From assembly GCA_958295665.1 (NCBI GenBank), contig OY282558.1, positions 310,406,092 to 310,470,091 on the forward strand: 64,000 bases of DNA. The letters are read 5' to 3'. The stretch's first letter is position 1, and each line of letters opens with the position of its first letter. The DNA comes from Tipula vernalis. Lineage: Eukaryota; Arthropoda; Insecta; Diptera; Tipulidae. Below the pieces are notes generated by a model. That model was given only the letters and a program-made list of their open reading frames with translations. It searched no databases and was not told the origin of the DNA. The translations under genes and the position numbers were made by a program. Positions 2,612 through 32,990 of the stretch are shown in pieces.

Positions 2612-2699
2612 GATTCCAACCTCTTAAAGGTTAGAAAGTGAGTGATTTCCATAGATACTCTTCAAGGGTCAGTAATAGTAATGAAAGCATTACTAACCC

Positions 2700-3928: not shown

Positions 3929-5363
3929 AAAATACTCTAAGCGTGCGTATCGCCTTTACTTTCGTGAGCTTGCAGCAAAAGAGATGGAACTGTTGCTTGA
4001 CTCATATCACTTCAGGCTACATTAACACATTTAGTGATATTTACAAAATACTTTTGTGAATTTAACAAAATTTCATTAGGAGCGAAGAAACATGAAAGTT
4101 AATCATTTTCATAAGCATTTCTAAAAAATAATTCAGATGGAAAGTCTTTTGTGAAATTCACAAAATTCTTTAGTGATATTTACAAAATATTTTTGTGAAT
4201 TTAACAAAATTTCATTAGGAGCGAAGAAATGTATAACTAAACCATTTTATAGATATTTCTCAAAAATAATTGAAATCGATAAATTCTTTTGTAAAATTCA
4301 TAAAATTAATTAGTGAATTTACAAAATATTTTTGTGAGTTTAACAAAATTTCATTAGGAGCGAAGAAATGTATAACTAAACCATTTTATAGATATTTCTC
4401 AAAAATAATTGAAATCGATAAATTCTTTTTTGAAATTCACAAAATTCTTTTATTGATATTTACAAAATAGTTTTGTGAATTTAACAAAATTTCATTAGGA
4501 GCGAAGAAATGTATAACTAAACCATTTTATAGATATTTCTCAAAAATAATTGAAATCGATAAATTCTTTTGTGAAATTCACAAAATACTTTTGTGATATT
4601 CACAAAATATTTTTGTGAGTTTAACAAAACTTCATTAGGGGCGAATAAAATACTCTAAGCGTGCGTATCGCCTTTACTTTCGTGAGCTTGCAGCAAAAGA
4701 GATGGAACTGTTGCTTGACTCATATCACTTCAGGCTACATTAACACATTTAGTGATATTTACAAAATACTTTTGTGAATTTAACAAAATTTCATTAGGAG
4801 CGAAGAAACATGAAAGTTAATCATTTTCATAAGCATTTCTAAAAAATAATTCAGATGGAAAGTCTTTTGTGAAATTCACAAAATTCTTTAGTGATATTTA
4901 CAAAATATTTTTGTGAATTTAACAAAATTTCATTAGGAGCGAAGAAATGTATAACTAAACCATTTTATAGATATTTCTCAAAAATAATTGAAATCGATAA
5001 ATTCTTTTGTAAAATTCATAAAATTAATTAGTGAATTTACAAAATATTTTTGTGAGTTTAACAAAATTTCATTAGGAGCGAAGAAATGTATAACTAAACC
5101 ATTTTATAGATATTTCTCAAAAATAATTGAAATCGATAAATTCTTTTTTGAAATTCACAAAATTCTTTTATTGATATTTACAAAATAGTTTTGTGAATTT
5201 AACAAAATTTCATTAGGAGCGAAGAAATGTATAACTAAACCATTTTATAGATATTTCTCAAAAATAATTGAAATCGATAAATTCTTTTGTGAAATTCACA
5301 AAATACTTTTGTGATATTTACAAAATATTTTTGTGAGTTTAACAAAACTTCATTAGGGGCGAA
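3929..5363 (+). repeat. 718-bp tandem duplication spanning the left satellite edge
   Basis: The sequence at 3929-4645 is repeated almost exactly at 4647-5363, an offset of 718 bp. Each copy includes about 100 bp of non-satellite flank (from 'TACTCTAAGCGTGCG' at 3933 and 4651) plus about 620 bp of edge satellite. One base differs near 4610/5328 (TATTCACA against TATTTACA). The join at 4643-4650 lies where 'GCGAA' of the satellite meets 'AAAATACTC' of the flank, a short shared A-rich stretch. This is consistent with duplication by unequal or microhomology-mediated exchange. Confidence 0.9.
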
Positions 5364-7249
5364 GAAATGTATAACTAAACCATTTTATAGATATTTCTCA
5401 AAAATAATTGAAATCGATAAATTCTTTTGTGAAATTCACAAAATTCTTTAGTGATATTTACAAAATACTTTTGTGAAGTTAACAAAATTTCATTAAGAGC
5501 GAAGAAATGTATAACTAAACCATTTTATAAATATTTCTCAAAAATAATTGAAATCGATAAATTCTTTTGTGAAATTTACAAAATTCTTTAGTGATATTTA
5601 CAAAATACTTTTGTGAATTTAACAAAATTTCATTAAGAGCGAAGAAATGTATAACTAAACCATTTTATAAATATTTCTCAAAAATAATTGAAATCGATAA
5701 ATTCTTTTGTGAAATTCACAAAATTCTTTAGTGATATTTACAAAATACTTTTGAGAAGTTAACAAAATTTCATTAGGAGCGAAGAAATGTATAACTAAAC
5801 CATTTTATAAATATTTCTCAAAAATAATTGAAATCGATAAATTCTTTTGTGAAATTTACAAAATACTTTAGTGATATTTACAAAATAGTTTTGTGAATTT
5901 AACAAAATTTCATTAGGAGCAAAGAAATGTATAACTAAACCATTTTATAGATATTTCTCAAAAATAATTGAAATCGATAAATTCTTTTGTAAAATTCATA
6001 AAATTCTTTAGTGATATTTACAAAATATTTTTGTGAGTTTAACAAAATTTCATTAGGAGCGAAGAAATGTATAACTAAACCATTTTATAGATATTTCTCA
6101 AAAATAATTGAAATCGATAAATTCTTTATGTGTTGTTTTTATAAATTCTTTTGTAAAATTCACAAAATTCTTTAGTGATATTTACAAAATACTTTTGAGA
6201 AGTTAACAAAATTTCATTAGGAGAGAAGAAATGTATAACTAAACCATTTTATAAATATTTCTCAAAAATAATTGAAATCGATAAATTCTTTTGTGAAATT
6301 CACAAAATTCTTTAGTGATATTTACAAAATACTTTTGTGAATTTAACAAAATTTCATTAGGAGCGAAGAAATGTATAACTAAACCATTTTATAGATATTT
6401 CTCAAAAATAACTTAAATCGATAAATTCTTTTGTGAAATTCACAAAATTCTTTAGTGATATTTACAAAATACTTTTGTGAGTTTAACAAAATTTCATTAG
6501 GAGCGAAAAAATGTATAACTAAACCATTTTATAAATATTTTTCAAAAATAATTCAAATCGGTAAATTCTTTTGTGAAATTCACAAAATTCTTTAGTGATA
6601 TTTACAAAATTTCATTAGGAGCAAAGAAATGTATAACTAAACCATTTTATAAATATTTCTCAAAAATAATTGAAATCGATAAATTCTTTTGTGAAATTCA
6701 CAAAATTCTTTAGTGATATTTACAAAATACTTTTGAGAATTTAACAAAATTTCATTAGAAGCGAAGAAATGTATAACTAAACCATTTTATAAATATTTCT
6801 CAAAAATAACTTAAATCGATAAATTCTTTTGTGAAATTCACAAAATTCTTTAGTGATATTTACAAAATACTTTTGTGAATTTAACAAAATTTCATTAGGA
6901 GCGAAGAAATGTATAACTAAACCATTTTATAAATATTTCTCAAAAATAATTGAAATCGATAAATTCTTTTGTGAAATTTACAAAATACTTTAGTGATATT
7001 TACAAAATAGTTTTGTGAATTTAACAAAATTTCATTAGGAGCAAAGAAATGTATAACTAAACCATTTTATAGATATTTCTCAAAAATAATTGAAATCGAT
7101 AAATTCTTTTGTAAAATTCATAAAATTCTTTAGTGATATTTACAAAATATTTTTGTGAGTTTAACAAAATTTCATTAGGAGCGAAGAAATGTATAACTAA
7201 ACCATTTTATAGATATTTCTCAAAAATAATTGAAATCGATAAATTCTTT

Positions 7250-10200
7250 ATGTGTTGGTTTTATAAATTCTTTTGTAAAATTCACAAAATTCTTTAGTGA
7301 TATTTACAAAATACTTTTGAGAAGTTAACAAAATTTCATTAGGAGAGAAGAAATGTATAACTAAACCATTTTATAAATATTTCTCAAAAATAATTGAAAT
7401 CGATAAATTCTTTTGTGAAATTCACAAAATTCTTTAGTGATATTTACAAAATACTTTTGTGAATTTAACAAAATTTCATTAGGAGCGAAGAAATGTATAA
7501 CTAAACCATTTTATAGATATTTCTCAAAAATAACTTAAATCGATAAATTCTTTTGTGAAATTCACAAAATTCTTTAGTGATATTTACAAAATACTTTTGT
7601 GAGTTTAACAAAATTTCATTAGGAGCGAAAAAATGTATAACTAAACCATTTTATAAATATTTTTCAAAAATAATTCAAATCGGTAAATTCTTTTGTGAAA
7701 TTCACAAAATTCTTTAGTGATATTTACAAAATTTCATTAGGAGCAAAGAAATGTATAACTAAACCATTTTATAAATATTTCTCAAAAATAATTGAAATCG
7801 ATAAATTCTTTTGTGAAATTCACAAAATTCTTTAGTGATATTTACAAAATACTTTTGAGAATTTAACAAAATTTCATTAGAAGCGAAGAAATGTATAACT
7901 AAACCATTTTATAAATATTTCTCAAAAATAACTTAAATCGATAAATTCTTTTGTGAAATTCACAAAATTCTTTAGTGATATTTACAAAATACTTTTGTGA
8001 GTTTAACAAAATTTCATTAGGAGCGAAGAAATGTATAACTAAACCATTTTATAAATATTTCTCAAAAATAATTGAAATCGGTAAATTTTTTGTGAAATTC
8101 ACAAAATTCTTTAGTGATATTTACAAAATTTCATTAGGAGCAAAGAAATGTATAACTAAACCATTTTATAAATATTTCTCAAAAATAATTGAAATCGATA
8201 AATTCTTTTGTGAAATTCACAAAATTCTTTAGTGATATTTACAAAATACTTTTGTGAATTTAACAAAATTTCATTAGGAGCGAAGAAATGTATAACTAAA
8301 CCATTTTATAAATATTTCTCAAAAATAACTTAAATCGATAAATTCTTTTGTGAAATTCACAAAATTCTTTAGTGATATTTACAAAATACTTTTGTGAATT
8401 TAACAAAATTTCATTAGGAGCGAAGAAATGTATAACTAAACCATTTTATAAATATTTCTCAAAAATAATTGAAATCGATAAATTCTTTTGTGAAATTTAC
8501 AAAATACTTTAGTGATATTTACAAAATAGTTTTGTGAATTTAACAAAATTTCATTAGGAGCAAAGAAATGTATAACTAAACCATTTTATAGATATTTCTC
8601 AAAAATAATTGAAATCGATAAATTCTTTTGTAAAATTCATAAAATTCTTTAGTGATATTTACAAAATATTTTTGTGAGTTTAACAAAATTTCATTAGGAG
8701 CGAAGAAATGTATAACTAAACCATTTTATAGATATTTCTCAAAAATAATTGAAATCGATAAATTCTTTATGTGTTGTTTTTATAAATTCTTTTGTAAAAT
8801 TCACAAAATTCTTTAGTGATATTTACAAAATACTTTTGAGAAGTTAACAAAATTTCATTAGGAGAGAAGAAATGTATAACTAAACCATTTTATAAATATT
8901 TCTCAAAAATAATTGAAATCGATAAATTCTTTTGTGAAATTCACAAAATTCTTTAGTGATATTTACAAAATACTTTTGTGAATTTAACAAAATTTCATTA
9001 GGAGCGAAGAAATGTATAACTAAACCATTTTATAGATATTTCTCAAAAATAACTTAAATCGATAAATTCTTTTGTGAAATTCACAAAATTCTTTAGTGAT
9101 ATTTACAAAATACTTTTGTGAGTTTAACAAAATTTCATTAGGAGCGAAAAAATGTATAACTAAACCATTTTATAAATATTTTTCAAAAATAATTCAAATC
9201 GGTAAATTCTTTTGTGAAATTCACAAAATTCTTTAGTGATATTTACAAAATTTCATTAGGAGCAAAGAAATGTATAACTAAACCATTTTATAAATATTTC
9301 TCAAAAATAATTGAAATCGATAAATTCTTTTGTGAAATTCACAAAATTCTTTAGTGATATTTACAAAATACTTTTGAGAATTTAACAAAATTTCATTAGA
9401 AGCGAAGAAATGTATAACTAAACCATTTTATAAATATTTCTCAAAAATAACTTAAATCGATAAATTCTTTTGTGAAATTCACAAAATTCTTTAGTGATAT
9501 TTACAAAATACTTTTGTGAATTTAACAAAATTTCATTAGGAGCGAAGAAATGTATAACTAAACCATTTTATAAATATTTCTCAAAAATAATTGAAATCGA
9601 TAAATTCTTTTGTGAAATTTACAAAATACTTTAGTGATATTTACAAAATAGTTTTGTGAATTTAACAAAATTTCATTAGGAGCAAAGAAATGTATAACTA
9701 AACCATTTTATAGATATTTCTCAAAAATAATTGAAATCGATAAATTCTTTTGTAAAATTCATAAAATTCTTTAGTGATATTTACAAAATATTTTTGTGAG
9801 TTTAACAAAATTTCATTAGGAGCGAAGAAATGTATAACTAAACCATTTTATAGATATTTCTCAAAAATAATTGAAATCGATAAATTCTTTATGTGTTGTT
9901 TTTATAAATTCTTTTGTAAAATTCACAAAATTCTTTAGTGATATTTACAAAATACTTTTGAGAAGTTAACAAAATTTCATTAGGAGAGAAGAAATGTATA
10001 ACTAAACCATTTTATAAATATTTCTCAAAAATAATTGAAATCGATAAATTCTTTTGTGAAATTCACAAAATTCTTTAGTGATATTTACAAAATACTTTTG
10101 TGAATTTAACAAAATTTCATTAGGAGCGAAGAAATGTATAACTAAACCATTTTATAGATATTTCTCAAAAATAACTTAAATCGATAAATTCTTTTGTGAA

Positions 10201-13200
10201 ATTCACAAAATTCTTTAGTGATATTTACAAAATACTTTTGTGAGTTTAACAAAATTTCATTAGGAGCGAAAAAATGTATAACTAAACCATTTTATAAATA
10301 TTTTTCAAAAATAATTCAAATCGGTAAATTCTTTTGTGAAATTCACAAAATTCTTTAGTGATATTTACAAAATTTCATTAGGAGCAAAGAAATGTATAAC
10401 TAAACCATTTTATAAATATTTCTCAAAAATAATTGAAATCGATAAATTCTTTTGTGAAATTCACAAAATTCTTTAGTGATATTTACAAAATACTTTTGAG
10501 AATTTAACAAAATTTCATTAGAAGCGAAGAAATGTATAACTAAACCATTTTATAAATATTTCTCAAAAATAACTTAAATCGATAAATTCTTTTGTGAAAT
10601 TCACAAAATTCTTTAGTGATATTTACAAAATACTTTTGTGAATTTAACAAAATTTCATTAGGAGCGAAGAAATGTATAACTAAACCATTTTATAAATATT
10701 TCTCAAAAATAATTGAAATCGATAAATTCTTTTGTGAAATTTACAAAATACTTTAGTGATATTTACAAAATAGTTTTGTGAATTTAACAAAATTTCATTA
10801 GGAGCAAAGAAATGTATAACTAAACCATTTTATAGATATTTCTCAAAAATAATTGAAATCGATAAATTCTTTTGTAAAATTCATAAAATTCTTTAGTGAT
10901 ATTTACAAAATATTTTTGTGAGTTTAACAAAATTTCATTAGGAGCGAAGAAATGTATAACTAAACCATTTTATAGATATTTCTCAAAAATAATTGAAATC
11001 GATAAATTCTTTATGTGTTGTTTTTATAAATTCTTTTGTAAAATTCACAAAATTCTTTAGTGATATTTACAAAATACTTTTGAGAAGTTAACAAAATTTC
11101 ATTAGGAGAGAAGAAATGTATAACTAAACCATTTTATAAATATTTCTCAAAAATAATTGAAATCGATAAATTCTTTTGTGAAATTCACAAAATTCTTTAG
11201 TGATATTTACAAAATACTTTTGTGAATTTAACAAAATTTCATTAGGAGCGAAGAAATGTATAACTAAACCATTTTATAGATATTTCTCAAAAATAACTTA
11301 AATCGATAAATTCTTTTGTGAAATTCACAAAATTCTTTAGTGATATTTACAAAATACTTTTGTGAGTTTAACAAAATTTCATTAGGAGCGAAAAAATGTA
11401 TAACTAAACCATTTTATAAATATTTTTCAAAAATAATTCAAATCGGTAAATTCTTTTGTGAAATTCACAAAATTCTTTAGTGATATTTACAAAATTTCAT
11501 TAGGAGCAAAGAAATGTATAACTAAACCATTTTATAAATATTTCTCAAAAATAATTGAAATCGATAAATTCTTTTGTGAAATTTACAAAATACTTTAGTG
11601 ATATTTACAAAATAGTTTTGTGAATTTAACAAAATTTCATTAGGAGCAAAGAAATGTATAACTAAACCATTTTATAGATATTTCTCAAAAATAATTGAAA
11701 TCGATAAATTCTTTTGTAAAATTCATAAAATTCTTTAGTGATATTTACAAAATATTTTTGTGAGTTTAACAAAATTTCATTAGGAGCGAAGAAATGTATA
11801 ACTAAACCATTTTATAGATATTTCTCAAAAATAATTGAAATCGATAAATTCTTTATGTGTTGTTTTTATAAATTCTTTTGTAAAATTCACAAAATTCTTT
11901 AGTGATATTTACAAAATACTTTTGAGAAGTTAACAAAATTTCATTAGGAGAGAAGAAATGTATAACTAAACCATTTTATAAATATTTCTCAAAAATAATT
12001 GAAATCGATAAATTCTTTTGTGAAATTCACAAAATTCTTTAGTGATATTTACAAAATACTTTTGTGAATTTAACAAAATTTCATTAGGAGCGAAGAAATG
12101 TATAACTAAACCATTTTATAGATATTTCTCAAAAATAACTTAAATCGATAAATTCTTTTGTGAAATTCACAAAATTCTTTAGTGATATTTACAAAATACT
12201 TTTGTGAGTTTAACAAAATTTCATTAGGAGCGAAAAAATGTATAACTAAACCATTTTATAAATATTTTTCAAAAATAATTCAAATCGGTAAATTCTTTTG
12301 TGAAATTCACAAAATTCTTTAGTGATATTTACAAAATTTCATTAGGAGCAAAGAAATGTATAACTAAACCATTTTATAAATATTTCTCAAAAATAATTGA
12401 AATCGATAAATTCTTTTGTGAAATTCACAAAATTCTTTAGTGATATTTACAAAATACTTTTGAGAATTTAACAAAATTTCATTAGAAGCGAAGAAATGTA
12501 TAACTAAACCATTTTATAAATATTTCTCAAAAATAACTTAAATCGATAAATTCTTTTGTGAAATTCACAAAATTCTTTAGTGATATTTACAAAATACTTT
12601 TGTGAATTTAACAAAATTTCATTAGGAGCGAAGAAATGTATAACTAAACCATTTTATAAATATTTCTCAAAAATAATTGAAATCGATAAATTCTTTTGTG
12701 AAATTTACAAAATACTTTAGTGATATTTACAAAATAGTTTTGTGAATTTAACAAAATTTCATTAGGAGCAAAGAAATGTATAACTAAACCATTTTATAGA
12801 TATTTCTCAAAAATAATTGAAATCGATAAATTCTTTTGTAAAATTCATAAAATTCTTTAGTGATATTTACAAAATATTTTTGTGAGTTTAACAAAATTTC
12901 ATTAGGAGCGAAGAAATGTATAACTAAACCATTTTATAGATATTTCTCAAAAATAATTGAAATCGATAAATTCTTTATGTGTTGTTTTTATAAATTCTTT
13001 TGTAAAATTCACAAAATTCTTTAGTGATATTTACAAAATACTTTTGAGAAGTTAACAAAATTTCATTAGGAGAGAAGAAATGTATAACTAAACCATTTTA
13101 TAAATATTTCTCAAAAATAATTGAAATCGATAAATTCTTTTGTGAAATTCACAAAATTCTTTAGTGATATTTACAAAATACTTTTGTGAATTTAACAAAA

Positions 13201-15664
13201 TTTCATTAGGAGCGAAGAAATGTATAACTAAACCATTTTATAGATATTTCTCAAAAATAACTTAAATCGATAAATTCTTTTGTGAAATTCACAAAATTCT
13301 TTAGTGATATTTACAAAATACTTTTGTGAGTTTAACAAAATTTCATTAGGAGCGAAAAAATGTATAACTAAACCATTTTATAAATATTTTTCAAAAATAA
13401 TTCAAATCGGTAAATTCTTTTGTGAAATTCACAAAATTCTTTAGTGATATTTACAAAATTTCATTAGGAGCAAAGAAATGTATAACTAAACCATTTTATA
13501 AATATTTCTCAAAAATAATTGAAATCGATAAATTCTTTTGTGAAATTTACAAAATACTTTAGTGATATTTACAAAATAGTTTTGTGAATTTAACAAAATT
13601 TCATTAGGAGCAAAGAAATGTATAACTAAACCATTTTATAGATATTTCTCAAAAATAATTGAAATCGATAAATTCTTTTGTAAAATTCATAAAATTCTTT
13701 AGTGATATTTACAAAATATTTTTGTGAGTTTAACAAAATTTCATTAGGAGCGAAGAAATGTATAACTAAACCATTTTATAGATATTTCTCAAAAATAATT
13801 GAAATCGATAAATTCTTTATGTGTTGTTTTTATAAATTCTTTTGTAAAATTCACAAAATTCTTTAGTGATATTTACAAAATACTTTTGAGAAGTTAACAA
13901 AATTTCATTAGGAGAGAAGAAATGTATAACTAAACCATTTTATAAATATTTCTCAAAAATAATTGAAATCGATAAATTCTTTTGTGAAATTCACAAAATT
14001 CTTTAGTGATATTTACAAAATACTTTTGTGAATTTAACAAAATTTCATTAGGAGCGAAGAAATGTATAACTAAACCATTTTATAGATATTTCTCAAAAAT
14101 AACTTAAATCGATAAATTCTTTTGTGAAATTCACAAAATTCTTTAGTGATATTTACAAAATACTTTTGTGAATTTAACAAAATTTCATTAGGAGCGAAGA
14201 AATGTATAACTAAACCATTTTATAAATATTTCTCAAAAATAATTGAAATCGATAAATTCTTTTGTGAAATTTACAAAATACTTTAGTGATATTTACAAAA
14301 TAGTTTTGTGAATTTAACAAAATTTCATTAGGAGCAAAGAAATGTATAACTAAACCATTTTATAGATATTTCTCAAAAATAATTGAAATCGATAAATTCT
14401 TTTGTAAAATTCATAAAATTCTTTAGTGATATTTACAAAATATTTTTGTGAGTTTAACAAAATTTCATTAGGAGCGAAGAAATGTATAACTAAACCATTT
14501 TATAGATATTTCTCAAAAATAATTGAAATCGATAAATTCTTTATGTGTTGTTTTTATAAATTCTTTTGTAAAATTCACAAAATTCTTTAGTGATATTTAC
14601 AAAATACTTTTGAGAAGTTAACAAAATTTCATTAGGAGAGAAGAAATGTATAACTAAACCATTTTATAAATATTTCTCAAAAATAATTGAAATCGATAAA
14701 TTCTTTTGTGAAATTCACAAAATTCTTTAGTGATATTTACAAAATACTTTTGTGAATTTAACAAAATTTCATTAGGAGCGAAGAAATGTATAACTAAACC
14801 ATTTTATAGATATTTCTCAAAAATAACTTAAATCGATAAATTCTTTTGTGAAATTCACAAAATTCTTTAGTGATATTTACAAAATACTTTTGTGAGTTTA
14901 ACAAAATTTCATTAGGAGCGAAAAAATGTATAACTAAACCATTTTATAAATATTTTTCAAAAATAATTCAAATCGGTAAATTCTTTTGTGAAATTCACAA
15001 AATTCTTTAGTGATATTTACAAAATTTCATTAGGAGCAAAGAAATGTATAACTAAACCATTTTATAAATATTTCTCAAAAATAATTGAAATCGATAAATT
15101 CTTTTGTGAAATTCACAAAATTCTTTAGTGATATTTACAAAATACTTTTGAGAATTTAACAAAATTTCATTAGAAGCGAAGAAATGTATAACTAAACCAT
15201 TTTATAAATATTTCTCAAAAATAACTTAAATCGATAAATTCTTTTGTGAAATTCACAAAATTCTTTAGTGATATTTACAAAATACTTTTGTGAATTTAAC
15301 AAAATTTCATTAGGAGCGAAGAAATGTATAACTAAACCATTTTATAAATATTTCTCAAAAATAATTGAAATCGATAAATTCTTTTGTGAAATTTACAAAA
15401 TACTTTAGTGATATTTACAAAATAGTTTTGTGAATTTAACAAAATTTCATTAGGAGCAAAGAAATGTATAACTAAACCATTTTATAGATATTTCTCAAAA
15501 ATAATTGAAATCGATAAATTCTTTTGTAAAATTCATAAAATTCTTTAGTGATATTTACAAAATATTTTTGTGAGTTTAACAAAATTTCATTAGGAGCGAA
15601 GAAATGTATAACTAAACCATTTTATAGATATTTCTCAAAAATAATTGAAATCGATAAATTCTTT
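7250..15664 (+). repeat. 8415-bp super-repeat, copy 1 (60 monomers)
   Basis: Starts at a 164-bp marker monomer and contains blocks of 1519, 1122, 1122, 842, 1122, 842, 724 and 1122 bp. Using 140-, 118- and 164-bp units these are 11, 8, 8, 6, 8, 6, 5 and 8 monomers, 60 in all. The 1519-bp block equals 164 + 2x118 + 8x140 minus one base, lost in its 'GGTAAATTTTTTGTG' monomer. A private base, G at 7258, is T at 15673 and 24088. Confidence 0.95.
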
Positions 15665-18600
15665 ATGTGTTGTTTTTATAAATTCTTTTGTAAAATTCAC
15701 AAAATTCTTTAGTGATATTTACAAAATACTTTTGAGAAGTTAACAAAATTTCATTAGGAGAGAAGAAATGTATAACTAAACCATTTTATAAATATTTTTC
15801 AAAAATAATTGAAATCGATAAATTCTTTTGTGAAATTCACAAAATTCTTTAGTGATATTTACAAAATACTTTTGTGAATTTAACAAAATTTCATTAGGAG
15901 CGAAGAAATGTATAACTAAACCATTTTATAGATATTTCTCAAAAATAACTTAAATCGATAAATTCTTTTGTGAAATTCACAAAATTCTTTAGTGATATTT
16001 ACAAAATACTTTTGTGAGTTTAACAAAATTTCATTAGGAGCGAAAAAATGTATAACTAAACCATTTTATAAATATTTTTCAAAAATAATTCAAATCGGTA
16101 AATTCTTTTGTGAAATTCACAAAATTCTTTAGTGATATTTACAAAATTTCATTAGGAGCAAAGAAATGTATAACTAAACCATTTTATAAATATTTCTCAA
16201 AAATAATTGAAATCGATAAATTCTTTTGTGAAATTCACAAAATTCTTTAGTGATATTTACAAAATACTTTTGAGAATTTAACAAAATTTCATTAGAAGCG
16301 AAGAAATGTATAACTAAACCATTTTATAAATATTTCTCAAAAATAACTTAAATCGATAAATTCTTTTGTGAAATTCACAAAATTCTTTAGTGATATTTAC
16401 AAAATACTTTTGTGAGTTTAACAAAATTTCATTAGGAGCGAAGAAATGTATAACTAAACCATTTTATAAATATTTCTCAAAAATAATTGAAATCGGTAAA
16501 TTTTTTGTGAAATTCACAAAATTCTTTAGTGATATTTACAAAATTTCATTAGGAGCAAAGAAATGTATAACTAAACCATTTTATAAATATTTCTCAAAAA
16601 TAATTGAAATCGATAAATTCTTTTGTGAAATTCACAAAATTCTTTAGTGATATTTACAAAATACTTTTGTGAATTTAACAAAATTTCATTAGGAGCGAAG
16701 AAATGTATAACTAAACCATTTTATAAATATTTCTCAAAAATAACTTAAATCGATAAATTCTTTTGTGAAATTCACAAAATTCTTTAGTGATATTTACAAA
16801 ATACTTTTGTGAATTTAACAAAATTTCATTAGGAGCGAAGAAATGTATAACTAAACCATTTTATAAATATTTCTCAAAAATAATTGAAATCGATAAATTC
16901 TTTTGTGAAATTTACAAAATACTTTAGTGATATTTACAAAATAGTTTTGTGAATTTAACAAAATTTCATTAGGAGCAAAGAAATGTATAACTAAACCATT
17001 TTATAGATATTTCTCAAAAATAATTGAAATCGATAAATTCTTTTGTAAAATTCATAAAATTCTTTAGTGATATTTACAAAATATTTTTGTGAGTTTAACA
17101 AAATTTCATTAGGAGCGAAGAAATGTATAACTAAACCATTTTATAGATATTTCTCAAAAATAATTGAAATCGATAAATTCTTTATGTGTTGTTTTTATAA
17201 ATTCTTTTGTAAAATTCACAAAATTCTTTAGTGATATTTACAAAATACTTTTGAGAAGTTAACAAAATTTCATTAGGAGAGAAGAAATGTATAACTAAAC
17301 CATTTTATAAATATTTCTCAAAAATAATTGAAATCGATAAATTCTTTTGTGAAATTCACAAAATTCTTTAGTGATATTTACAAAATACTTTTGTGAATTT
17401 AACAAAATTTCATTAGGAGCGAAGAAATGTATAACTAAACCATTTTATAGATATTTCTCAAAAATAACTTAAATCGATAAATTCTTTTGTGAAATTCACA
17501 AAATTCTTTAGTGATATTTACAAAATACTTTTGTGAGTTTAACAAAATTTCATTAGGAGCGAAAAAATGTATAACTAAACCATTTTATAAATATTTTTCA
17601 AAAATAATTCAAATCGGTAAATTCTTTTGTGAAATTCACAAAATTCTTTAGTGATATTTACAAAATTTCATTAGGAGCAAAGAAATGTATAACTAAACCA
17701 TTTTATAAATATTTCTCAAAAATAATTGAAATCGATAAATTCTTTTGTGAAATTCACAAAATTCTTTAGTGATATTTACAAAATACTTTTGAGAATTTAA
17801 CAAAATTTCATTAGAAGCGAAGAAATGTATAACTAAACCATTTTATAAATATTTCTCAAAAATAACTTAAATCGATAAATTCTTTTGTGAAATTCACAAA
17901 ATTCTTTAGTGATATTTACAAAATACTTTTGTGAATTTAACAAAATTTCATTAGGAGCGAAGAAATGTATAACTAAACCATTTTATAAATATTTCTCAAA
18001 AATAATTGAAATCGATAAATTCTTTTGTGAAATTTACAAAATACTTTAGTGATATTTACAAAATAGTTTTGTGAATTTAACAAAATTTCATTAGGAGCAA
18101 AGAAATGTATAACTAAACCATTTTATAGATATTTCTCAAAAATAATTGAAATCGATAAATTCTTTTGTAAAATTCATAAAATTCTTTAGTGATATTTACA
18201 AAATATTTTTGTGAGTTTAACAAAATTTCATTAGGAGCGAAGAAATGTATAACTAAACCATTTTATAGATATTTCTCAAAAATAATTGAAATCGATAAAT
18301 TCTTTATGTGTTGTTTTTATAAATTCTTTTGTAAAATTCACAAAATTCTTTAGTGATATTTACAAAATACTTTTGAGAAGTTAACAAAATTTCATTAGGA
18401 GAGAAGAAATGTATAACTAAACCATTTTATAAATATTTCTCAAAAATAATTGAAATCGATAAATTCTTTTGTGAAATTCACAAAATTCTTTAGTGATATT
18501 TACAAAATACTTTTGTGAATTTAACAAAATTTCATTAGGAGCGAAGAAATGTATAACTAAACCATTTTATAGATATTTCTCAAAAATAACTTAAATCGAT

Positions 18601-21600
18601 AAATTCTTTTGTGAAATTCACAAAATTCTTTAGTGATATTTACAAAATACTTTTGTGAGTTTAACAAAATTTCATTAGGAGCGAAAAAATGTATAACTAA
18701 ACCATTTTATAAATATTTTTCAAAAATAATTCAAATCGGTAAATTCTTTTGTGAAATTCACAAAATTCTTTAGTGATATTTACAAAATTTCATTAGGAGC
18801 AAAGAAATGTATAACTAAACCATTTTATAAATATTTCTCAAAAATAATTGAAATCGATAAATTCTTTTGTGAAATTCACAAAATTCTTTAGTGATATTTA
18901 CAAAATACTTTTGAGAATTTAACAAAATTTCATTAGAAGCGAAGAAATGTATAACTAAACCATTTTATAAATATTTCTCAAAAATAACTTAAATCGATAA
19001 ATTCTTTTGTGAAATTCACAAAATTCTTTAGTGATATTTACAAAATACTTTTGTGAATTTAACAAAATTTCATTAGGAGCGAAGAAATGTATAACTAAAC
19101 CATTTTATAAATATTTCTCAAAAATAATTGAAATCGATAAATTCTTTTGTGAAATTTACAAAATACTTTAGTGATATTTACAAAATAGTTTTGTGAATTT
19201 AACAAAATTTCATTAGGAGCAAAGAAATGTATAACTAAACCATTTTATAGATATTTCTCAAAAATAATTGAAATCGATAAATTCTTTTGTAAAATTCATA
19301 AAATTCTTTAGTGATATTTACAAAATATTTTTGTGAGTTTAACAAAATTTCATTAGGAGCGAAGAAATGTATAACTAAACCATTTTATAGATATTTCTCA
19401 AAAATAATTGAAATCGATAAATTCTTTATGTGTTGTTTTTATAAATTCTTTTGTAAAATTCACAAAATTCTTTAGTGATATTTACAAAATACTTTTGAGA
19501 AGTTAACAAAATTTCATTAGGAGAGAAGAAATGTATAACTAAACCATTTTATAAATATTTCTCAAAAATAATTGAAATCGATAAATTCTTTTGTGAAATT
19601 CACAAAATTCTTTAGTGATATTTACAAAATACTTTTGTGAATTTAACAAAATTTCATTAGGAGCGAAGAAATGTATAACTAAACCATTTTATAGATATTT
19701 CTCAAAAATAACTTAAATCGATAAATTCTTTTGTGAAATTCACAAAATTCTTTAGTGATATTTACAAAATACTTTTGTGAGTTTAACAAAATTTCATTAG
19801 GAGCGAAAAAATGTATAACTAAACCATTTTATAAATATTTTTCAAAAATAATTCAAATCGGTAAATTCTTTTGTGAAATTCACAAAATTCTTTAGTGATA
19901 TTTACAAAATTTCATTAGGAGCAAAGAAATGTATAACTAAACCATTTTATAAATATTTCTCAAAAATAATTGAAATCGATAAATTCTTTTGTGAAATTTA
20001 CAAAATACTTTAGTGATATTTACAAAATAGTTTTGTGAATTTAACAAAATTTCATTAGGAGCAAAGAAATGTATAACTAAACCATTTTATAGATATTTCT
20101 CAAAAATAATTGAAATCGATAAATTCTTTTGTAAAATTCATAAAATTCTTTAGTGATATTTACAAAATATTTTTGTGAGTTTAACAAAATTTCATTAGGA
20201 GCGAAGAAATGTATAACTAAACCATTTTATAGATATTTCTCAAAAATAATTGAAATCGATAAATTCTTTATGTGTTGTTTTTATAAATTCTTTTGTAAAA
20301 TTCACAAAATTCTTTAGTGATATTTACAAAATACTTTTGAGAAGTTAACAAAATTTCATTAGGAGAGAAGAAATGTATAACTAAACCATTTTATAAATAT
20401 TTCTCAAAAATAATTGAAATCGATAAATTCTTTTGTGAAATTCACAAAATTCTTTAGTGATATTTACAAAATACTTTTGTGAATTTAACAAAATTTCATT
20501 AGGAGCGAAGAAATGTATAACTAAACCATTTTATAGATATTTCTCAAAAATAACTTAAATCGATAAATTCTTTTGTGAAATTCACAAAATTCTTTAGTGA
20601 TATTTACAAAATACTTTTGTGAGTTTAACAAAATTTCATTAGGAGCGAAAAAATGTATAACTAAACCATTTTATAAATATTTTTCAAAAATAATTCAAAT
20701 CGGTAAATTCTTTTGTGAAATTCACAAAATTCTTTAGTGATATTTACAAAATTTCATTAGGAGCAAAGAAATGTATAACTAAACCATTTTATAAATATTT
20801 CTCAAAAATAATTGAAATCGATAAATTCTTTTGTGAAATTCACAAAATTCTTTAGTGATATTTACAAAATACTTTTGAGAATTTAACAAAATTTCATTAG
20901 AAGCGAAGAAATGTATAACTAAACCATTTTATAAATATTTCTCAAAAATAACTTAAATCGATAAATTCTTTTGTGAAATTCACAAAATTCTTTAGTGATA
21001 TTTACAAAATACTTTTGTGAATTTAACAAAATTTCATTAGGAGCGAAGAAATGTATAACTAAACCATTTTATAAATATTTCTCAAAAATAATTGAAATCG
21101 ATAAATTCTTTTGTGAAATTTACAAAATACTTTAGTGATATTTACAAAATAGTTTTGTGAATTTAACAAAATTTCATTAGGAGCAAAGAAATGTATAACT
21201 AAACCATTTTATAGATATTTCTCAAAAATAATTGAAATCGATAAATTCTTTTGTAAAATTCATAAAATTCTTTAGTGATATTTACAAAATATTTTTGTGA
21301 GTTTAACAAAATTTCATTAGGAGCGAAGAAATGTATAACTAAACCATTTTATAGATATTTCTCAAAAATAATTGAAATCGATAAATTCTTTATGTGTTGT
21401 TTTTATAAATTCTTTTGTAAAATTCACAAAATTCTTTAGTGATATTTACAAAATACTTTTGAGAAGTTAACAAAATTTCATTAGGAGAGAAGAAATGTAT
21501 AACTAAACCATTTTATAAATATTTCTCAAAAATAATTGAAATCGATAAATTCTTTTGTGAAATTCACAAAATTCTTTAGTGATATTTACAAAATACTTTT

Positions 21601-24079
21601 GTGAATTTAACAAAATTTCATTAGGAGCGAAGAAATGTATAACTAAACCATTTTATAGATATTTCTCAAAAATAACTTAAATCGATAAATTCTTTTGTGA
21701 AATTCACAAAATTCTTTAGTGATATTTACAAAATACTTTTGTGAGTTTAACAAAATTTCATTAGGAGCGAAAAAATGTATAACTAAACCATTTTATAAAT
21801 ATTTTTCAAAAATAATTCAAATCGGTAAATTCTTTTGTGAAATTCACAAAATTCTTTAGTGATATTTACAAAATTTCATTAGGAGCAAAGAAATGTATAA
21901 CTAAACCATTTTATAAATATTTCTCAAAAATAATTGAAATCGATAAATTCTTTTGTGAAATTTACAAAATACTTTAGTGATATTTACAAAATAGTTTTGT
22001 GAATTTAACAAAATTTCATTAGGAGCAAAGAAATGTATAACTAAACCATTTTATAGATATTTCTCAAAAATAATTGAAATCGATAAATTCTTTTGTAAAA
22101 TTCATAAAATTCTTTAGTGATATTTACAAAATATTTTTGTGAGTTTAACAAAATTTCATTAGGAGCGAAGAAATGTATAACTAAACCATTTTATAGATAT
22201 TTCTCAAAAATAATTGAAATCGATAAATTCTTTATGTGTTGTTTTTATAAATTCTTTTGTAAAATTCACAAAATTCTTTAGTGATATTTACAAAATACTT
22301 TTGAGAAGTTAACAAAATTTCATTAGGAGAGAAGAAATGTATAACTAAACCATTTTATAAATATTTCTCAAAAATAATTGAAATCGATAAATTCTTTTGT
22401 GAAATTCACAAAATTCTTTAGTGATATTTACAAAATACTTTTGTGAATTTAACAAAATTTCATTAGGAGCGAAGAAATGTATAACTAAACCATTTTATAG
22501 ATATTTCTCAAAAATAACTTAAATCGATAAATTCTTTTGTGAAATTCACAAAATTCTTTAGTGATATTTACAAAATACTTTTGTGAATTTAACAAAATTT
22601 CATTAGGAGCGAAGAAATGTATAACTAAACCATTTTATAAATATTTCTCAAAAATAATTGAAATCGATAAATTCTTTTGTGAAATTTACAAAATACTTTA
22701 GTGATATTTACAAAATAGTTTTGTGAATTTAACAAAATTTCATTAGGAGCAAAGAAATGTATAACTAAACCATTTTATAGATATTTCTCAAAAATAATTG
22801 AAATCGATAAATTCTTTTGTAAAATTCATAAAATTCTTTAGTGATATTTACAAAATATTTTTGTGAGTTTAACAAAATTTCATTAGGAGCGAAGAAATGT
22901 ATAACTAAACCATTTTATAGATATTTCTCAAAAATAATTGAAATCGATAAATTCTTTATGTGTTGTTTTTATAAATTCTTTTGTAAAATTCACAAAATTC
23001 TTTAGTGATATTTACAAAATACTTTTGAGAAGTTAACAAAATTTCATTAGGAGAGAAGAAATGTATAACTAAACCATTTTATAAATATTTCTCAAAAATA
23101 ATTGAAATCGATAAATTCTTTTGTGAAATTCACAAAATTCTTTAGTGATATTTACAAAATACTTTTGTGAATTTAACAAAATTTCATTAGGAGCGAAGAA
23201 ATGTATAACTAAACCATTTTATAGATATTTCTCAAAAATAACTTAAATCGATAAATTCTTTTGTGAAATTCACAAAATTCTTTAGTGATATTTACAAAAT
23301 ACTTTTGTGAGTTTAACAAAATTTCATTAGGAGCGAAAAAATGTATAACTAAACCATTTTATAAATATTTTTCAAAAATAATTCAAATCGGTAAATTCTT
23401 TTGTGAAATTCACAAAATTCTTTAGTGATATTTACAAAATTTCATTAGGAGCAAAGAAATGTATAACTAAACCATTTTATAAATATTTCTCAAAAATAAT
23501 TGAAATCGATAAATTCTTTTGTGAAATTCACAAAATTCTTTAGTGATATTTACAAAATACTTTTGAGAATTTAACAAAATTTCATTAGAAGCGAAGAAAT
23601 GTATAACTAAACCATTTTATAAATATTTCTCAAAAATAACTTAAATCGATAAATTCTTTTGTGAAATTCACAAAATTCTTTAGTGATATTTACAAAATAC
23701 TTTTGTGAATTTAACAAAATTTCATTAGGAGCGAAGAAATGTATAACTAAACCATTTTATAAATATTTCTCAAAAATAATTGAAATCGATAAATTCTTTT
23801 GTGAAATTTACAAAATACTTTAGTGATATTTACAAAATAGTTTTGTGAATTTAACAAAATTTCATTAGGAGCAAAGAAATGTATAACTAAACCATTTTAT
23901 AGATATTTCTCAAAAATAATTGAAATCGATAAATTCTTTTGTAAAATTCATAAAATTCTTTAGTGATATTTACAAAATATTTTTGTGAGTTTAACAAAAT
24001 TTCATTAGGAGCGAAGAAATGTATAACTAAACCATTTTATAGATATTTCTCAAAAATAATTGAAATCGATAAATTCTTT
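15665..24079 (+). repeat. 8415-bp super-repeat, copy 2 (60 monomers)
   Basis: Same block order and exactly the same length as copy 1. A private T at 15798 (in 'AATATTTTTC') is C at the equivalent positions 7383 and 24213. This shows that the copies are distinct sequences and not one stretch printed twice. Confidence 0.95.
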
Positions 24080-27000
24080 ATGTGTTGTTTTTATAAATTC
24101 TTTTGTAAAATTCACAAAATTCTTTAGTGATATTTACAAAATACTTTTGAGAAGTTAACAAAATTTCATTAGGAGAGAAGAAATGTATAACTAAACCATT
24201 TTATAAATATTTCTCAAAAATAATTGAAATCGATAAATTCTTTTGTGAAATTCACAAAATTCTTTAGTGATATTTACAAAATACTTTTGTGAATTTAACA
24301 AAATTTCATTAGGAGCGAAGAAATGTATAACTAAACCATTTTATAGATATTTCTCAAAAATAACTTAAATCGATAAATTCTTTTGTGAAATTCACAAAAT
24401 TCTTTAGTGATATTTACAAAATACTTTTGTGAGTTTAACAAAATTTCATTAGGAGCGAAAAAATGTATAACTAAACCATTTTATAAATATTTTTCAAAAA
24501 TAATTCAAATCGGTAAATTCTTTTGTGAAATTCACAAAATTCTTTAGTGATATTTACAAAATTTCATTAGGAGCAAAGAAATGTATAACTAAACCATTTT
24601 ATAAATATTTCTCAAAAATAATTGAAATCGATAAATTCTTTTGTGAAATTCACAAAATTCTTTAGTGATATTTACAAAATACTTTTGAGAATTTAACAAA
24701 ATTTCATTAGAAGCGAAGAAATGTATAACTAAACCATTTTATAAATATTTCTCAAAAATAACTTAAATCGATAAATTCTTTTGTGAAATTCACAAAATTC
24801 TTTAGTGATATTTACAAAATACTTTTGTGAGTTTAACAAAATTTCATTAGGAGCGAAGAAATGTATAACTAAACCATTTTATAAATATTTCTCAAAAATA
24901 ATTGAAATCGGTAAATTTTTTGTGAAATTCACAAAATTCTTTAGTGATATTTACAAAATTTCATTAGGAGCAAAGAAATGTATAACTAAACCATTTTATA
25001 AATATTTCTCAAAAATAATTGAAATCGATAAATTCTTTTGTGAAATTCACAAAATTCTTTAGTGATATTTACAAAATACTTTTGTGAATTTAACAAAATT
25101 TCATTAGGAGCGAAGAAATGTATAACTAAACCATTTTATAAATATTTCTCAAAAATAACTTAAATCGATAAATTCTTTTGTGAAATTCACAAAATTCTTT
25201 AGTGATATTTACAAAATACTTTTGTGAATTTAACAAAATTTCATTAGGAGCGAAGAAATGTATAACTAAACCATTTTATAAATATTTCTCAAAAATAATT
25301 GAAATCGATAAATTCTTTTGTGAAATTTACAAAATACTTTAGTGATATTTACAAAATAGTTTTGTGAATTTAACAAAATTTCATTAGGAGCAAAGAAATG
25401 TATAACTAAACCATTTTATAGATATTTCTCAAAAATAATTGAAATCGATAAATTCTTTTGTAAAATTCATAAAATTCTTTAGTGATATTTACAAAATATT
25501 TTTGTGAGTTTAACAAAATTTCATTAGGAGCGAAGAAATGTATAACTAAACCATTTTATAGATATTTCTCAAAAATAATTGAAATCGATAAATTCTTTAT
25601 GTGTTGTTTTTATAAATTCTTTTGTAAAATTCACAAAATTCTTTAGTGATATTTACAAAATACTTTTGAGAAGTTAACAAAATTTCATTAGGAGAGAAGA
25701 AATGTATAACTAAACCATTTTATAAATATTTCTCAAAAATAATTGAAATCGATAAATTCTTTTGTGAAATTCACAAAATTCTTTAGTGATATTTACAAAA
25801 TACTTTTGTGAATTTAACAAAATTTCATTAGGAGCGAAGAAATGTATAACTAAACCATTTTATAGATATTTCTCAAAAATAACTTAAATCGATAAATTCT
25901 TTTGTGAAATTCACAAAATTCTTTAGTGATATTTACAAAATACTTTTGTGAGTTTAACAAAATTTCATTAGGAGCGAAAAAATGTATAACTAAACCATTT
26001 TATAAATATTTTTCAAAAATAATTCAAATCGGTAAATTCTTTTGTGAAATTCACAAAATTCTTTAGTGATATTTACAAAATTTCATTAGGAGCAAAGAAA
26101 TGTATAACTAAACCATTTTATAAATATTTCTCAAAAATAATTGAAATCGATAAATTCTTTTGTGAAATTCACAAAATTCTTTAGTGATATTTACAAAATA
26201 CTTTTGAGAATTTAACAAAATTTCATTAGAAGCGAAGAAATGTATAACTAAACCATTTTATAAATATTTCTCAAAAATAACTTAAATCGATAAATTCTTT
26301 TGTGAAATTCACAAAATTCTTTAGTGATATTTACAAAATACTTTTGTGAATTTAACAAAATTTCATTAGGAGCGAAGAAATGTATAACTAAACCATTTTA
26401 TAAATATTTCTCAAAAATAATTGAAATCGATAAATTCTTTTGTGAAATTTACAAAATACTTTAGTGATATTTACAAAATAGTTTTGTGAATTTAACAAAA
26501 TTTCATTAGGAGCAAAGAAATGTATAACTAAACCATTTTATAGATATTTCTCAAAAATAATTGAAATCGATAAATTCTTTTGTAAAATTCATAAAATTCT
26601 TTAGTGATATTTACAAAATATTTTTGTGAGTTTAACAAAATTTCATTAGGAGCGAAGAAATGTATAACTAAACCATTTTATAGATATTTCTCAAAAATAA
26701 TTGAAATCGATAAATTCTTTATGTGTTGTTTTTATAAATTATTTTGTAAAATTCACAAAATTCTTTAGTGATATTTACAAAATACTTTTGAGAAGTTAAC
26801 AAAATTTCATTAGGAGAGAAGAAATGTATAACTAAACCATTTTATAAATATTTCTCAAAAATAATTGAAATCGATAAATTCTTTTGTGAAATTCACAAAA
26901 TTCTTTAGTGATATTTACAAAATACTTTTGTGAATTTAACAAAATTTCATTAGGAGCGAAGAAATGTATAACTAAACCATTTTATAGATATTTCTCAAAA

Positions 27001-28412
27001 ATAACTTAAATCGATAAATTCTTTTGTGAAATTCACAAAATTCTTTAGTGATATTTACAAAATACTTTTGTGAGTTTAACAAAATTTCATTAGGAGCGAA
27101 AAAATGTATAACTAAACCATTTTATAAATATTTTTCAAAAATAATTCAAATCGGTAAATTCTTTTGTGAAATTCACAAAATTCTTTAGTGATATTTACAA
27201 AATTTCATTAGGAGCAAAGAAATGTATAACTAAACCATTTTATAAATATTTCTCAAAAATAATTGAAATCGATAAATTCTTTTGTGAAATTCACAAAATT
27301 CTTTAGTGATATTTACAAAATACTTTTGAGAATTTAACAAAATTTCATTAGAAGCGAAGAAATGTATAACTAAACCATTTTATAAATATTTCTCAAAAAT
27401 AACTTAAATCGATAAATTCTTTTGTGAAATTCACAAAATTCTTTAGTGATATTTACAAAATACTTTTGTGAATTTAACAAAATTTCATTAGGAGCGAAGA
27501 AATGTATAACTAAACCATTTTATAAATATTTCTCAAAAATAATTGAAATCGATAAATTCTTTTGTGAAATTTACAAAATACTTTAGTGATATTTACAAAA
27601 TAGTTTTGTGAATTTAACAAAATTTCATTAGGAGCAAAGAAATGTATAACTAAACCATTTTATAGATATTTCTCAAAAATAATTGAAATCGATAAATTCT
27701 TTTGTAAAATTCATAAAATTCTTTAGTGATATTTACAAAATATTTTTGTGAGTTTAACAAAATTTCATTAGGAGCGAAGAAATGTATAACTAAACCATTT
27801 TATAGATATTTCTCAAAAATAATTGAAATCGATAAATTCTTTATGTGTTGTTTTTATAAATTCTTTTGTAAAATTCACAAAATTCTTTAGTGATATTTAC
27901 AAAATACTTTTGAGAAGTTAACAAAATTTCATTAGGAGAGAAGAAATGTATAACTAAACCATTTTATAAATATTTCTCAAAAATAATTGAAATCGATAAA
28001 TTCTTTTGTGAAATTCACAAAATTCTTTAGTGATATTTACAAAATACTTTTGTGAATTTAACAAAATTTCATTAGGAGCGAAGAAATGTATAACTAAACC
28101 ATTTTATAGATATTTCTCAAAAATAACTTAAATCGATAAATTCTTTTGTGAAATTCACAAAATTCTTTAGTGATATTTACAAAATACTTTTGTGAGTTTA
28201 ACAAAATTTCATTAGGAGCGAAAAAATGTATAACTAAACCATTTTATAAATATTTTTCAAAAATAATTCAAATCGGTAAATTCTTTTGTGAAATTCACAA
28301 AATTCTTTAGTGATATTTACAAAATTTCATTAGGAGCAAAGAAATGTATAACTAAACCATTTTATAAATATTTCTCAAAAATAATTGAAATCGATAAATT
28401 CTTTTGTGAAAT
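24080..28412 (+). repeat. 8415-bp super-repeat, copy 3 (partial)
   Basis: Follows the same block order (1519, 1122, 1122) as far as the marker at 27843. The next block starts normally, then near 28412 switches to the 1519-type arrangement where an 842-bp block was expected. A private A at 26741 is C at 9911 and 18326. Confidence 0.93.
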
Positions 28413-31400: not shown

Positions 31401-32990
31401 ATAGATATTTCTCAAAAATAATTGAAATCGATAAATTCTTTATGTGTTGTTTTTATAAATTCTTTTGTAAAATTCACAAAATTCTTTAGTGATATTTACA
31501 AAATACTTTTGAGAAGTTAACAAAATTTCATTAGGAGAGAAGAAATGTATAACTAAACCATTTTATAAATATTTCTCAAAAATAATTGAAATCGATAAAT
31601 TCTTTTGTGAAATTCACAAAATTCTTTAGTGATATTTACAAAATACTTTTGTGAATTTAACAAAATTTCATTAGGAGCGAAGAAATGTATAACTAAACCA
31701 TTTTATAGATATTTCTCAAAAATAACTTAAATCGATAAATTCTTTTGTGAAATTCACAAAATTCTTTAGTGATATTTACAAAATACTTTTGTGAGTTTAA
31801 CAAAATTTCATTAGGAGCGAAAAAATGTATAACTAAACCATTTTATAAATATTTTTCAAAAATAATTCAAATCGGTAAATTCTTTTGTGAAATTCACAAA
31901 ATTCTTTAGTGATATTTACAAAATTTCATTAGGAGCAAAGAAATGTATAACTAAACCATTTTATAAATATTTCTCAAAAATAATTGAAATCGATAAATTC
32001 TTTTGTGAAATTCACAAAATTCTTTAGTGATATTTACAAAATACTTTTGAGAATTTAACAAAATTTCATTAGAAGCGAAGAAATGTATAACTAAACCATT
32101 TTATAAATATTTCTCAAAAATAACTTAAATCGATAAATTCTTTTGTGAAATTCACAAAATTCTTTAGTGATATTTACAAAATACTTTTGTGAGTTTAACA
32201 AAATTTCATTAGGAGCGAAGAAATGTATAACTAAACCATTTTATAAATATTTCTCAAAAATAATTGAAATCGGTAAATTTTTTGTGAAATTCACAAAATT
32301 CTTTAGTGATATTTACAAAATTTCATTAGGAGCAAAGAAATGTATAACTAAACCATTTTATAAATATTTCTCAAAAATAATTGAAATCGATAAATTCTTT
32401 TGTGAAATTCACAAAATTCTTTAGTGATATTTACAAAATACTTTTGTGAATTTAACAAAATTTCATTAGGAGCGAAGAAATGTATAACTAAACCATTTTA
32501 TAAATATTTCTCAAAAATAACTTAAATCGATAAATTCTTTTGTGAAATTCACAAAATTCTTTAGTGATATTTACAAAATACTTTTGTGAGTTTAACAAAA
32601 TTTCATTAGGAGCGAAGAAATGTATAACTAAACCATTTTATAAATATTTCTCAAAAATAATTGAAATCGGTAAATTCTTTTGTCAAATTCACAAAATTCT
32701 TTAGTGATATTTACAAAATTTCATTATGAGCAAAGAAATGTATAACTAAACCATTTTATAAATATTTCTCAAAAATAATTGAAATCGGTAAATTCTTTTG
32801 TGAAATTCACAAAATTCTTTAGTGATATTTACAAAATTTCATTAGGAGCAAAGAAATGTATAACTAAACCATTTTATAAATATTTCTCAAAAATAATTGA
32901 AATCGATAAATTCTTTTGTGAAATTCACAAAATTCTTTAGTGATATTTACAAAATACTTTTGTGAATTTAACAAAATTTCATTAGGAGCG
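28413..32990 (+). repeat. Reorganised higher-order blocks distal to the super-repeat
   Basis: Marker monomers at 27843, 29923 and 31442 give blocks of 2080 and 1519 bp, then an incomplete 1519-type block. The 2080-bp block equals a 1519-bp block plus 561 bp, about four extra monomers. Some of those extras are diverged (near 29080-29110 and 29340-29480) and one resembles the left-edge monomers ('TTTTATTGATATTTAC'). This part uses the same building blocks in a different order and is not covered by the 8415-bp period. Confidence 0.85.

Follow-up and report, generated by a model that had tools for sequence, protein, structure and literature searches.

How does a satellite come to carry a super-repeat of 60 monomers that is itself composed of several related blocks in a fixed order? 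The question is raised by an array within a 64,000-nucleotide stretch of Tipula vernalis DNA, the whole of which we refer to as the window. The original prediction placed the array at 5759-28412. These limits are correct for the 8415-bp period, but the satellite itself is larger (approximately 30 kb; Table 1), its rightmost divergent monomer carrying the end beyond the TRF limit. Non-satellite DNA bounds the array on either side within the window, and its GC content is 0.205, compared to 0.289 and 0.300 in the flanks. The intervals between anchors in the array (n = 212) are 140 bp long in 151 cases, corresponding to the monomer. The 22-bp sub-repeats predicted within the monomer are present, but they are confined to ~66 of the 140 bp (three units), which diverge from one another by 14-23 percent in the one stretch that was compared. 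No signal at 22 bp was seen in the remaining 74 bp, scored in a single stretch (10584-10723): the best match was 0.59, with a shuffle p of 0.66. The monomer types I-P are ~2-7 percent apart, while J is identical in 23/23 copies and N in 21/21.

The 8415-bp, 60-monomer period was borne out almost to the base. At lag 8415, 4 mismatches were found over the 14239 compared positions (5759-19997), and the bounds of the period, set by the next mismatches at this lag (5758 and 19999, the latter with its partner at 28414), fall nearly where they had been claimed. When the copies are stacked (8415 + 8415 + 5824 bp), 3 sites vary over 22654 bp, with one private substitution in each copy and none common to two. 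The identity between the units is ~99.97 percent; the period is right, and calling it exact was a slight overstatement. Autocorrelation within 5759-28412 was 1.0 (rounded) at 8415, 0.818 at 1122, 0.815 at 140 and 0.516 at 22, all four above the median of 0.332 over lags 1-11999. All nine marker positions that had been listed as recurring 8415 bp apart are correct, and the marker at 7250 holds the substitution of copy 1. From 6886, the blocks follow the claimed order of 1519-1122-1122-842-1122-842-724-1122, which sums to 8415 bp. This order recurs more than chance would allow: 12 consecutive blocks each match the block eight positions later, and 0/200000 shuffles of the sizes of all 23 blocks attained such a run, the best shuffled run being 11 (in 3 shuffles). 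Copy 1 contains 15 exact monomer variants, including the private K2, with J and L present 8 times each. The period extends over only 2.69 copies, hence there is no long array of super-repeats here, and copy 3 breaks it where an 11-mer replaces a 6-mer. The 5-mer was considered as a scar of the 8415-bp duplication, an idea that was dropped; the period stops at the 6-mer/11-mer difference instead.

Table 1. Features of the satellite array, in window coordinates.
Feature	Position	Strand	Remarks
Whole satellite array	~4030..33820	+	TRF row 4030-33659, monomer parse, GC and end sequence
Left-edge tandem duplication, period 718	3929..5363	+	3929-4645 matches 4647-5363, one mismatch
8415-bp unit, copy 1	5759..14173	+	blocks 8-11-8-8-6-8-6-5; private substitution 7258
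8415-bp unit, copy 2	14174..22588	+	private substitution 15798
8415-bp unit, copy 3, partial, 5824 bp	22589..28412	+	private substitution 26741
11-mer I J K L M N O M P O M, 1519 bp	6886..8404	+	further starts 15301, 23716, 27479, 29559, 31078
8-mer, 1122 bp, 11 copies in all	5764..6885	+	ends in M2; readable as 11-mer less P-O-M
6-mer, 842 bp, 4 identical copies	10649..11490	+	I2 follows each; readable as 8-mer less O-M
5-mer, 724 bp, 2 identical copies	13455..14178, also 21870-22593	+	ends in M5
Monomers Q R S T, between two 11-mers	28998..29558	+	single copy each; outside amplified blocks
Right edge: U, V, O, four W monomers, divergent 241-bp end interval	32597..33773	+	

The array comprises 23 blocks. 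No two of the 6 copies of the 11-mer differ by more than 2 mismatches, and the 5-, 6- and 8-mers appear to be shortened versions of it; they do not form an independent tier of their own. The lengths missing from the shorter blocks are those of whole monomers (397, 280 and 398 bp), and the blocks within a unit show no differences besides the recombinant sites and the three private substitutions. The monomers at 21/23 block ends or joints can be given a recombinant reading. M2, which closes all of the 8-mers, has 14A and 47A as in M3 and 134A as in M4, and is readable as the start of M3 joined to the end of M4. M5, at the close of both 5-mers, corresponds to M1 at 14 and 47 and to M2 or M4 at 134. 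The monomer I2, found after 4/4 6-mers, carries the base of O at 18 and the bases of I from 94 on. M4 (4 copies, before I) is the same as M6 save at 134, where its base matches that of T, a monomer that likewise precedes an I block. The M variants are distinguished by three sites only. Mosaic monomers at the joints are what unequal homologous exchange predicts; any single one of them could be imitated by point mutation or short gene conversion.

Directly observed in this array are the periods and the way they nest, the mosaic monomers, the near lack of substitutions and the older monomers at both edges. Taken together, these make it probable that we are dealing with a non-coding satellite array containing a higher-order repeat (HOR), made by homologous recombination between misaligned copies. 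In the history that we propose, the 140-bp monomer, with its three 22-bp units, would have diversified, and a single run of 11 monomers would have been tandemly duplicated. Exchange between look-alike monomers, by unequal crossing-over or template-switching repair, would have shortened some of the 11-mers to 8-, 6- and 5-mers, and the eight-block stretch would itself have been repeated, recently, up to 2.69 copies. Both the direction from the 11-mer to the shorter blocks and the order of these events are what we infer from the array. As the 8415-bp unit contains the blocks, its amplification must be later than their formation. The differences from block to block and from unit to unit are both near zero, and the two processes are therefore inseparable in time. 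The four structural levels would fall into about three distinguishable epochs, with the blocks and the 8415-bp unit both in the last. Thus, of the proposal that segmental amplification was repeated at growing scale, the amplification and the placement of the 8415-bp step after the blocks stand, but the divergence shows approximately three epochs and not four growing rounds. Some of the events were other than monomer-to-monomer exchange, because the 718-bp duplication at the left edge took in ~100 bp of non-satellite flank together with four monomers; the matching sequence at its joint is only short. A copy number of 2.69 calls for one or more additional changes at the ends, and the monomer before copy 1 is H, which the simplest history does not predict. 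Reasoning by hand did not lead to a unique minimal history of events. We propose no selected cellular role for the array, a by-product of repeat recombination being likeliest.

Instead of successive unequal crossovers, a single burst of rolling-circle or break-induced replication could have produced the 8415-bp copies. The star-like distribution of the private substitutions is compatible with a burst, and in a human cell line changes in alpha-satellite arrays have been linked to break-induced replication (PMC11034957). However, three sites are too few to tell a burst from two quick steps, and the mosaic joints are explained by crossover too; we regard a burst as possible, if doubtful. Unequal exchange was simulated from a 36-monomer ancestor with two 11-mers, the start and the weights being of our choosing, in 600 runs each without and with homology weighting, and any qualifying period was scored. 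A period of at least 40 monomers in at least 2.0 copies arose in 496/600 runs without weighting and in 502/600 with it, and in at least 2.5 copies in 48/600 and 83/600, respectively. Periods of at least 50 monomers in at least 2.68 copies were seen in only 19/600 and 32/600 runs, which places the observed array at the high end of the model. An earlier form of the simulation, scored by the best-copied period only, gave a period of at least 40 monomers in at least 2.5 copies in 12/150 and 22/150 runs, and in at least 2.0 copies in 64/150 and 66/150. The array also serves as a caution that a fixed order of repeat levels need not signal a special mechanism.

The direction of change could be the reverse, with the 8-mer older and the 11-mer derived from it by the gain of three monomers, the remaining history being unchanged. 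The three M sites by themselves can be read in this manner, as M3 (M2/M1) and M4 (M1/M2) are equally single switches, and at the left of the array H is followed by an 8-mer. P, however, differs from the edge monomer U by 1 mismatch and 1 gap, against 3 mismatches and 1 gap from N, and the right edge also has O2; P-O-M is thus no fresh copy of N-O-M. On the right, moreover, the older Q-T and U-W monomers adjoin 11-mers, not 8-mers. An older 8-mer is accordingly unlikely, and the 11-mer is retained as the probable source of the shorter blocks.

TE-like sequence adjoins the array, and a reverse transcriptase open reading frame lies beside it. At E 1e-20 or better, the 7994 candidates scored yielded at least 528 relatives of this reverse transcriptase; the top identity among the 120 matches listed is 66 percent, and these include the insects Schistocerca (3), Euphydryas (2), Parnassius (1) and Cacopsylla (1) at 38-42 percent identity. 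A search for protein relatives of a second open reading frame found none, and the Rfam and tRNA scans over the window were empty. Exact-pattern scans for the satellite in viral and prokaryote genome contigs returned 0 matches, as expected for eukaryote DNA. In the rest of the window, the best match to the monomer among the 30 rows listed is 23 bp long (E 0.001), and comparison of the array ends with the rest of the window gave 25 weak rows for the left and 55 for the right (best E 0.038 and 0.012). Between 2501-4030 and 33801-35300 there are no direct matches of at least 12 bp; the inverted matches of at least 13 bp are AT-rich, the longest being 16 bp. A putative transposon origin of the array is not supported.

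Could the 8415-bp period, or its copy number, be a product of assembly, from a looped layout of reads too short to cross the unit? Copies that are near-identical across 8.4 kb are consistent with such an artifact. Yet each copy has its private substitution, the third quits the period for an 11-mer, and both ends of the array pass into non-satellite sequence inside the window. Copying one unit in silico would give no private differences, though uncorrected read errors could, and we hold an assembly product to be quite improbable. That the array is a putative functional centromere or other chromosomal element, its order kept by selection, is highly improbable. In its favour, the monomer is near-nucleosomal and AT-rich, the organization is of higher order, and the array has 133 occurrences of a 19-bp perfect palindrome (odd centre) that is absent from the rest of the window. 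Against it, the array measures just 30 kb beside TE-like sequence, and its block lengths vary.

Recombination between misaligned copies is the preferred reading. The pattern is real and unusually legible, yet of a kind already described. The earlier view of the nesting as unusual was too strong, as cascading HORs, superHORs and local-nested HORs have been published in primates. Cascading HORs and superHORs of primate alpha satellite are units in which the same monomer types occur several times, such as a 58-mer of the orangutan Y in 67 copies and a 15-mer in 429 copies, with monomers of ~171 bp that are 20-40 percent apart (PMC11050224; PMC12428378). The present array resembles them in its long unit, close in monomer number to the orangutan 58-mer, and in the recurrence of monomer types within the unit. 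As in a HOR, the units are far more alike than the monomer types I-P (93-98 percent identical). The 60-mer is present in 2.69 copies, and the block level has 23 blocks. The array differs from the primate centromere arrays in its few copies, its closely related monomers and its 30-kb length. Judged by its length of 140 bp, the monomer is not alpha satellite. Many I-P pairs are 95-98 percent identical, so the published alpha-satellite rule (less than 5 percent divergence for the same type) would merge these types; the array appears to be built like a cascading HOR, and is not classed as one in the strict published sense.

In local-nested HORs, known from human centromeres 9, 13 and 18, part of a HOR is amplified inside the HOR, and the same outcome is possible from amplification or deletion according to the HiCAT authors (PMC10053651). 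The nesting here is similar, and the mosaic and edge monomers favour deletion. The mosaic monomers are also akin to the hybrids of CentromereArchitect, which join the start of one type to the end of another (PMC8336445); those are called among well separated monomers at a 1 percent divergence limit, whereas ours are read from one to three diagnostic sites. HOR organization outside primates is shared with beetle and other insect satellites, where HORs are usually dimeric in beetles and complex HORs are present in insects (PMC5615363); in the excerpts of that review and of PMC10218199, regular HORs are usually dimeric and a unit near 60 monomers is not met. A literature query aimed at insect satellites with 140-bp monomers and subrepeats of 22 bp listed 0 papers, and we make no claim that this satellite is unpublished. 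The nested HORs in the excerpts compared lie in large primate centromeres, while here a short array retains both edges, surviving 11-mers flanked by older monomers, and mosaics at the joints. We tentatively suggest that this 60-monomer nested HOR outside primates may preserve, on a small scale, a natural record of the beginnings of nested HORs, in which one sequence could almost suffice to order the steps from the 11-mer to the 8.4-kb super-repeat. For models of the origin of higher-order repeats, the array offers a compact test case.

The satellite occupies GC-poor DNA (GC 0.205 in the array versus 0.289 and 0.300 in the left and right flanks), and the 64-kb window contains no N. Monomers were delimited by cuts at a conserved anchor, 213 anchors giving 212 intervals, among which 36 sequences are distinct. 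The interval lengths were 140 bp (151 intervals), 164 bp (23), 118 bp (23), 117 bp (6), 139 bp (4), 141 bp (3), and 159 and 241 bp (one each), the last two including non-satellite or divergent DNA. The 118-bp monomers lack one 22-bp unit and the 164-bp monomers carry an additional 24 bp. In the one stretch tested (10584-10723), three 22-bp units, 77-86 percent mutually alike, cover 66 bp, and the 22-bp signal was absent from the other 74 bp. TRF 22-bp rows of about three units each recur in successive monomers among the matches listed. A perfect 19-bp palindrome, odd-centred (for example, 10590-10608), lies in the opening 22-bp unit of many monomer types, namely A, D, F, H, L, M, N, O, P, T, V, W and X; it occurs 133 times in the array versus 0 in the remaining window and is possibly a protein-binding or cruciform site.

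Monomer types I-P, 93-98 percent alike on monomer comparison, make up the 11-mer block I J K L M N O M P O M, and the 8-, 6- and 5-mers are shorter versions of this series. From 5764 the block sizes run 8-11-8-8-6-8-6-5 twice, followed by 8-11-8-8-11, the monomers Q R S T, two more 11-mers and the right edge. Shuffling the 23 block sizes 200000 times never produced a run to match the 12 blocks seen in the array. At lag 8415, 4 of 14239 positions were mismatched over 5759-19997. Stacking the copies of the unit (8415, 8415 and 5824 bp) shows three variable positions (7258, 15798 and 26741), each private to one copy, a load of three substitutions in 22654 bp (about 1.3 in 10000). The original prediction was of a four-level hierarchy ending in an exact 8415-bp, 60-monomer super-repeat; the lag-8415 comparison and the block parse bear out its coordinates, marker positions and block order, and the unit does contain 60 monomers at that period, but the three private substitutions mean that the repeat is not exact.

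Features of the window and monomer variants within blocks and at block joints
Feature	Coordinates	Bases at 14, 47, 134	Description
Satellite array	~4030-33820		TRF row 4030-33659; last divergent monomer extends slightly beyond
Left-edge tandem duplication	3929-5363		718 bp, one mismatch; includes ~100 bp of non-satellite flank
Probable Penelope-like element	34639-36889		517-aa open frame on minus strand (34934-36487), RVT_1 match; GIY-YIG domain accession or name in several relatives of the frame among the matches listed; 393-bp inverted copies on flanks, 99 percent identical; ~0.8 kb from right end of array
Perhaps a decayed non-LTR retrotransposon	43165-46502		Open frames on minus strand, one (43165-43539) with RVT_1 match; second zinc-finger-like by eye, no Pfam match
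Hairpin-like self-complementary stretches	42113-42560; 38239-38330		77 and 78 percent identity, respectively, to own reverse complement
Inverted pair, likely a dispersed repeat	2398-2496; 57249-57347		99 bp, 90 percent identical, one each side of array
M1		G G G	After L, in 21 blocks continuing to N
M2		A A A	End of 11 8-mers
M3		A A G	Before P, 6 copies
M4		G A A	End of 4 11-mers that precede another block
M5		G G A	End of 2 5-mers
M6		G A G	End of 2 11-mers that precede Q or U
I2			Directly after each of 4 6-mers

Blocks of the same size are 0-2 bases apart (8-mers, n=11; 11-mers, n=6; 6-mers, n=4; 5-mers, n=2). With the mosaic-defining sites set aside, no block-position substitution is shared between copies of the 8415-bp unit. 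Within the resolution that substitutions offer, block formation and the super-repeat are therefore assigned to a single recent epoch; older differences could have been wiped out by gene conversion. Monomer M exists as six variants, defined by positions 14, 47 and 134. M2 may be read as a switch from M3 to M4, M5 as one from M1 to M2 or M4, and M4 as M6 carrying the base of T at the last site; I2 would likewise be a switch from O to I between 18 and 94. Of the 23 block ends or joints, 21 carry such a mosaic-readable monomer (11 + 2 + 4 + 4), a tally that counts copies of one event repeatedly. Each mosaic has one to three diagnostic sites, and any single one is possibly explained by mutation or conversion instead.

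On the most economical reading, an 11-mer would have been duplicated at an M6/T joint, and unequal exchange would then have shortened 11-mers to 8-, 6- and 5-mers. The reverse order, an older 8-mer from which the 11-mer derives, is also allowed by the three M sites alone, as a single-switch parent listing permits M3 as M2/M1 and M4 as M1/M2; this slightly lowered our confidence in the unequal-exchange account as a whole, which is still high. We consider the reverse order improbable, since P is closer to U, an edge monomer from which 1 mismatch and 1 gap separate it, than to N, with 3 mismatches and 1 gap, O2 is present at the right edge too, and on the right side the older Q-T and U-W monomers are adjoined by 11-mers. 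On the left side, H is followed by an 8-mer. A simulation of unequal exchange started with a 36-monomer ancestor containing two 11-mers and enlarged it to 180 monomers in 600 runs per setting, with parameters of our choosing, unfitted. A period of at least 40 monomers in at least 2.0 copies arose in 496 unweighted and 502 homology-weighted runs, and in at least 2.5 copies in 48 and 83, respectively; at least 50 monomers in at least 2.68 copies arose in 19 and 32. Under this model the real array is a credible outcome, though one at the upper end.

An array homogenised in its interior, with divergent monomers outside, is the usual picture. Here, more divergent or low-copy monomers are present at both ends of the array, and those designated Q R S T separate the third-last 11-mer from the second-last. 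The left-edge duplication spans the array boundary and thereby brought a copy of non-satellite flank inside the array, with no more than short matching sequence at the joint. Because it took in this flank, at least one event was other than monomer-to-monomer exchange. That the 8415-bp period or its copy number is an assembly product is improbable, as the private substitution of each copy and the array ends visible within the window both speak against it.

Published accounts include a general description of HORs (PMC8122249), local-nested HORs (PMC10053651), hybrid monomers (PMC8336445), break-induced replication linked to array change (PMC11034957), a review covering HORs of beetles and insects (PMC5615363) and dimeric HORs in one beetle (PMC10218199); PMC13228423 has no decisive bearing on the case. 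In the orangutan, 44 monomer types make up a 58-mer present in 67 copies, and further long superHORs occur (PMC12428378). Cascading HORs, as defined in PMC11050224, repeat monomer types inside one HOR copy. The alpha-satellite rule, by which monomers less than 5 percent apart are one type, would merge many of the monomers described here, so the array is not a cascading HOR in the strict published sense. Short of that definition, it is an HOR with a cascading-HOR-like build.
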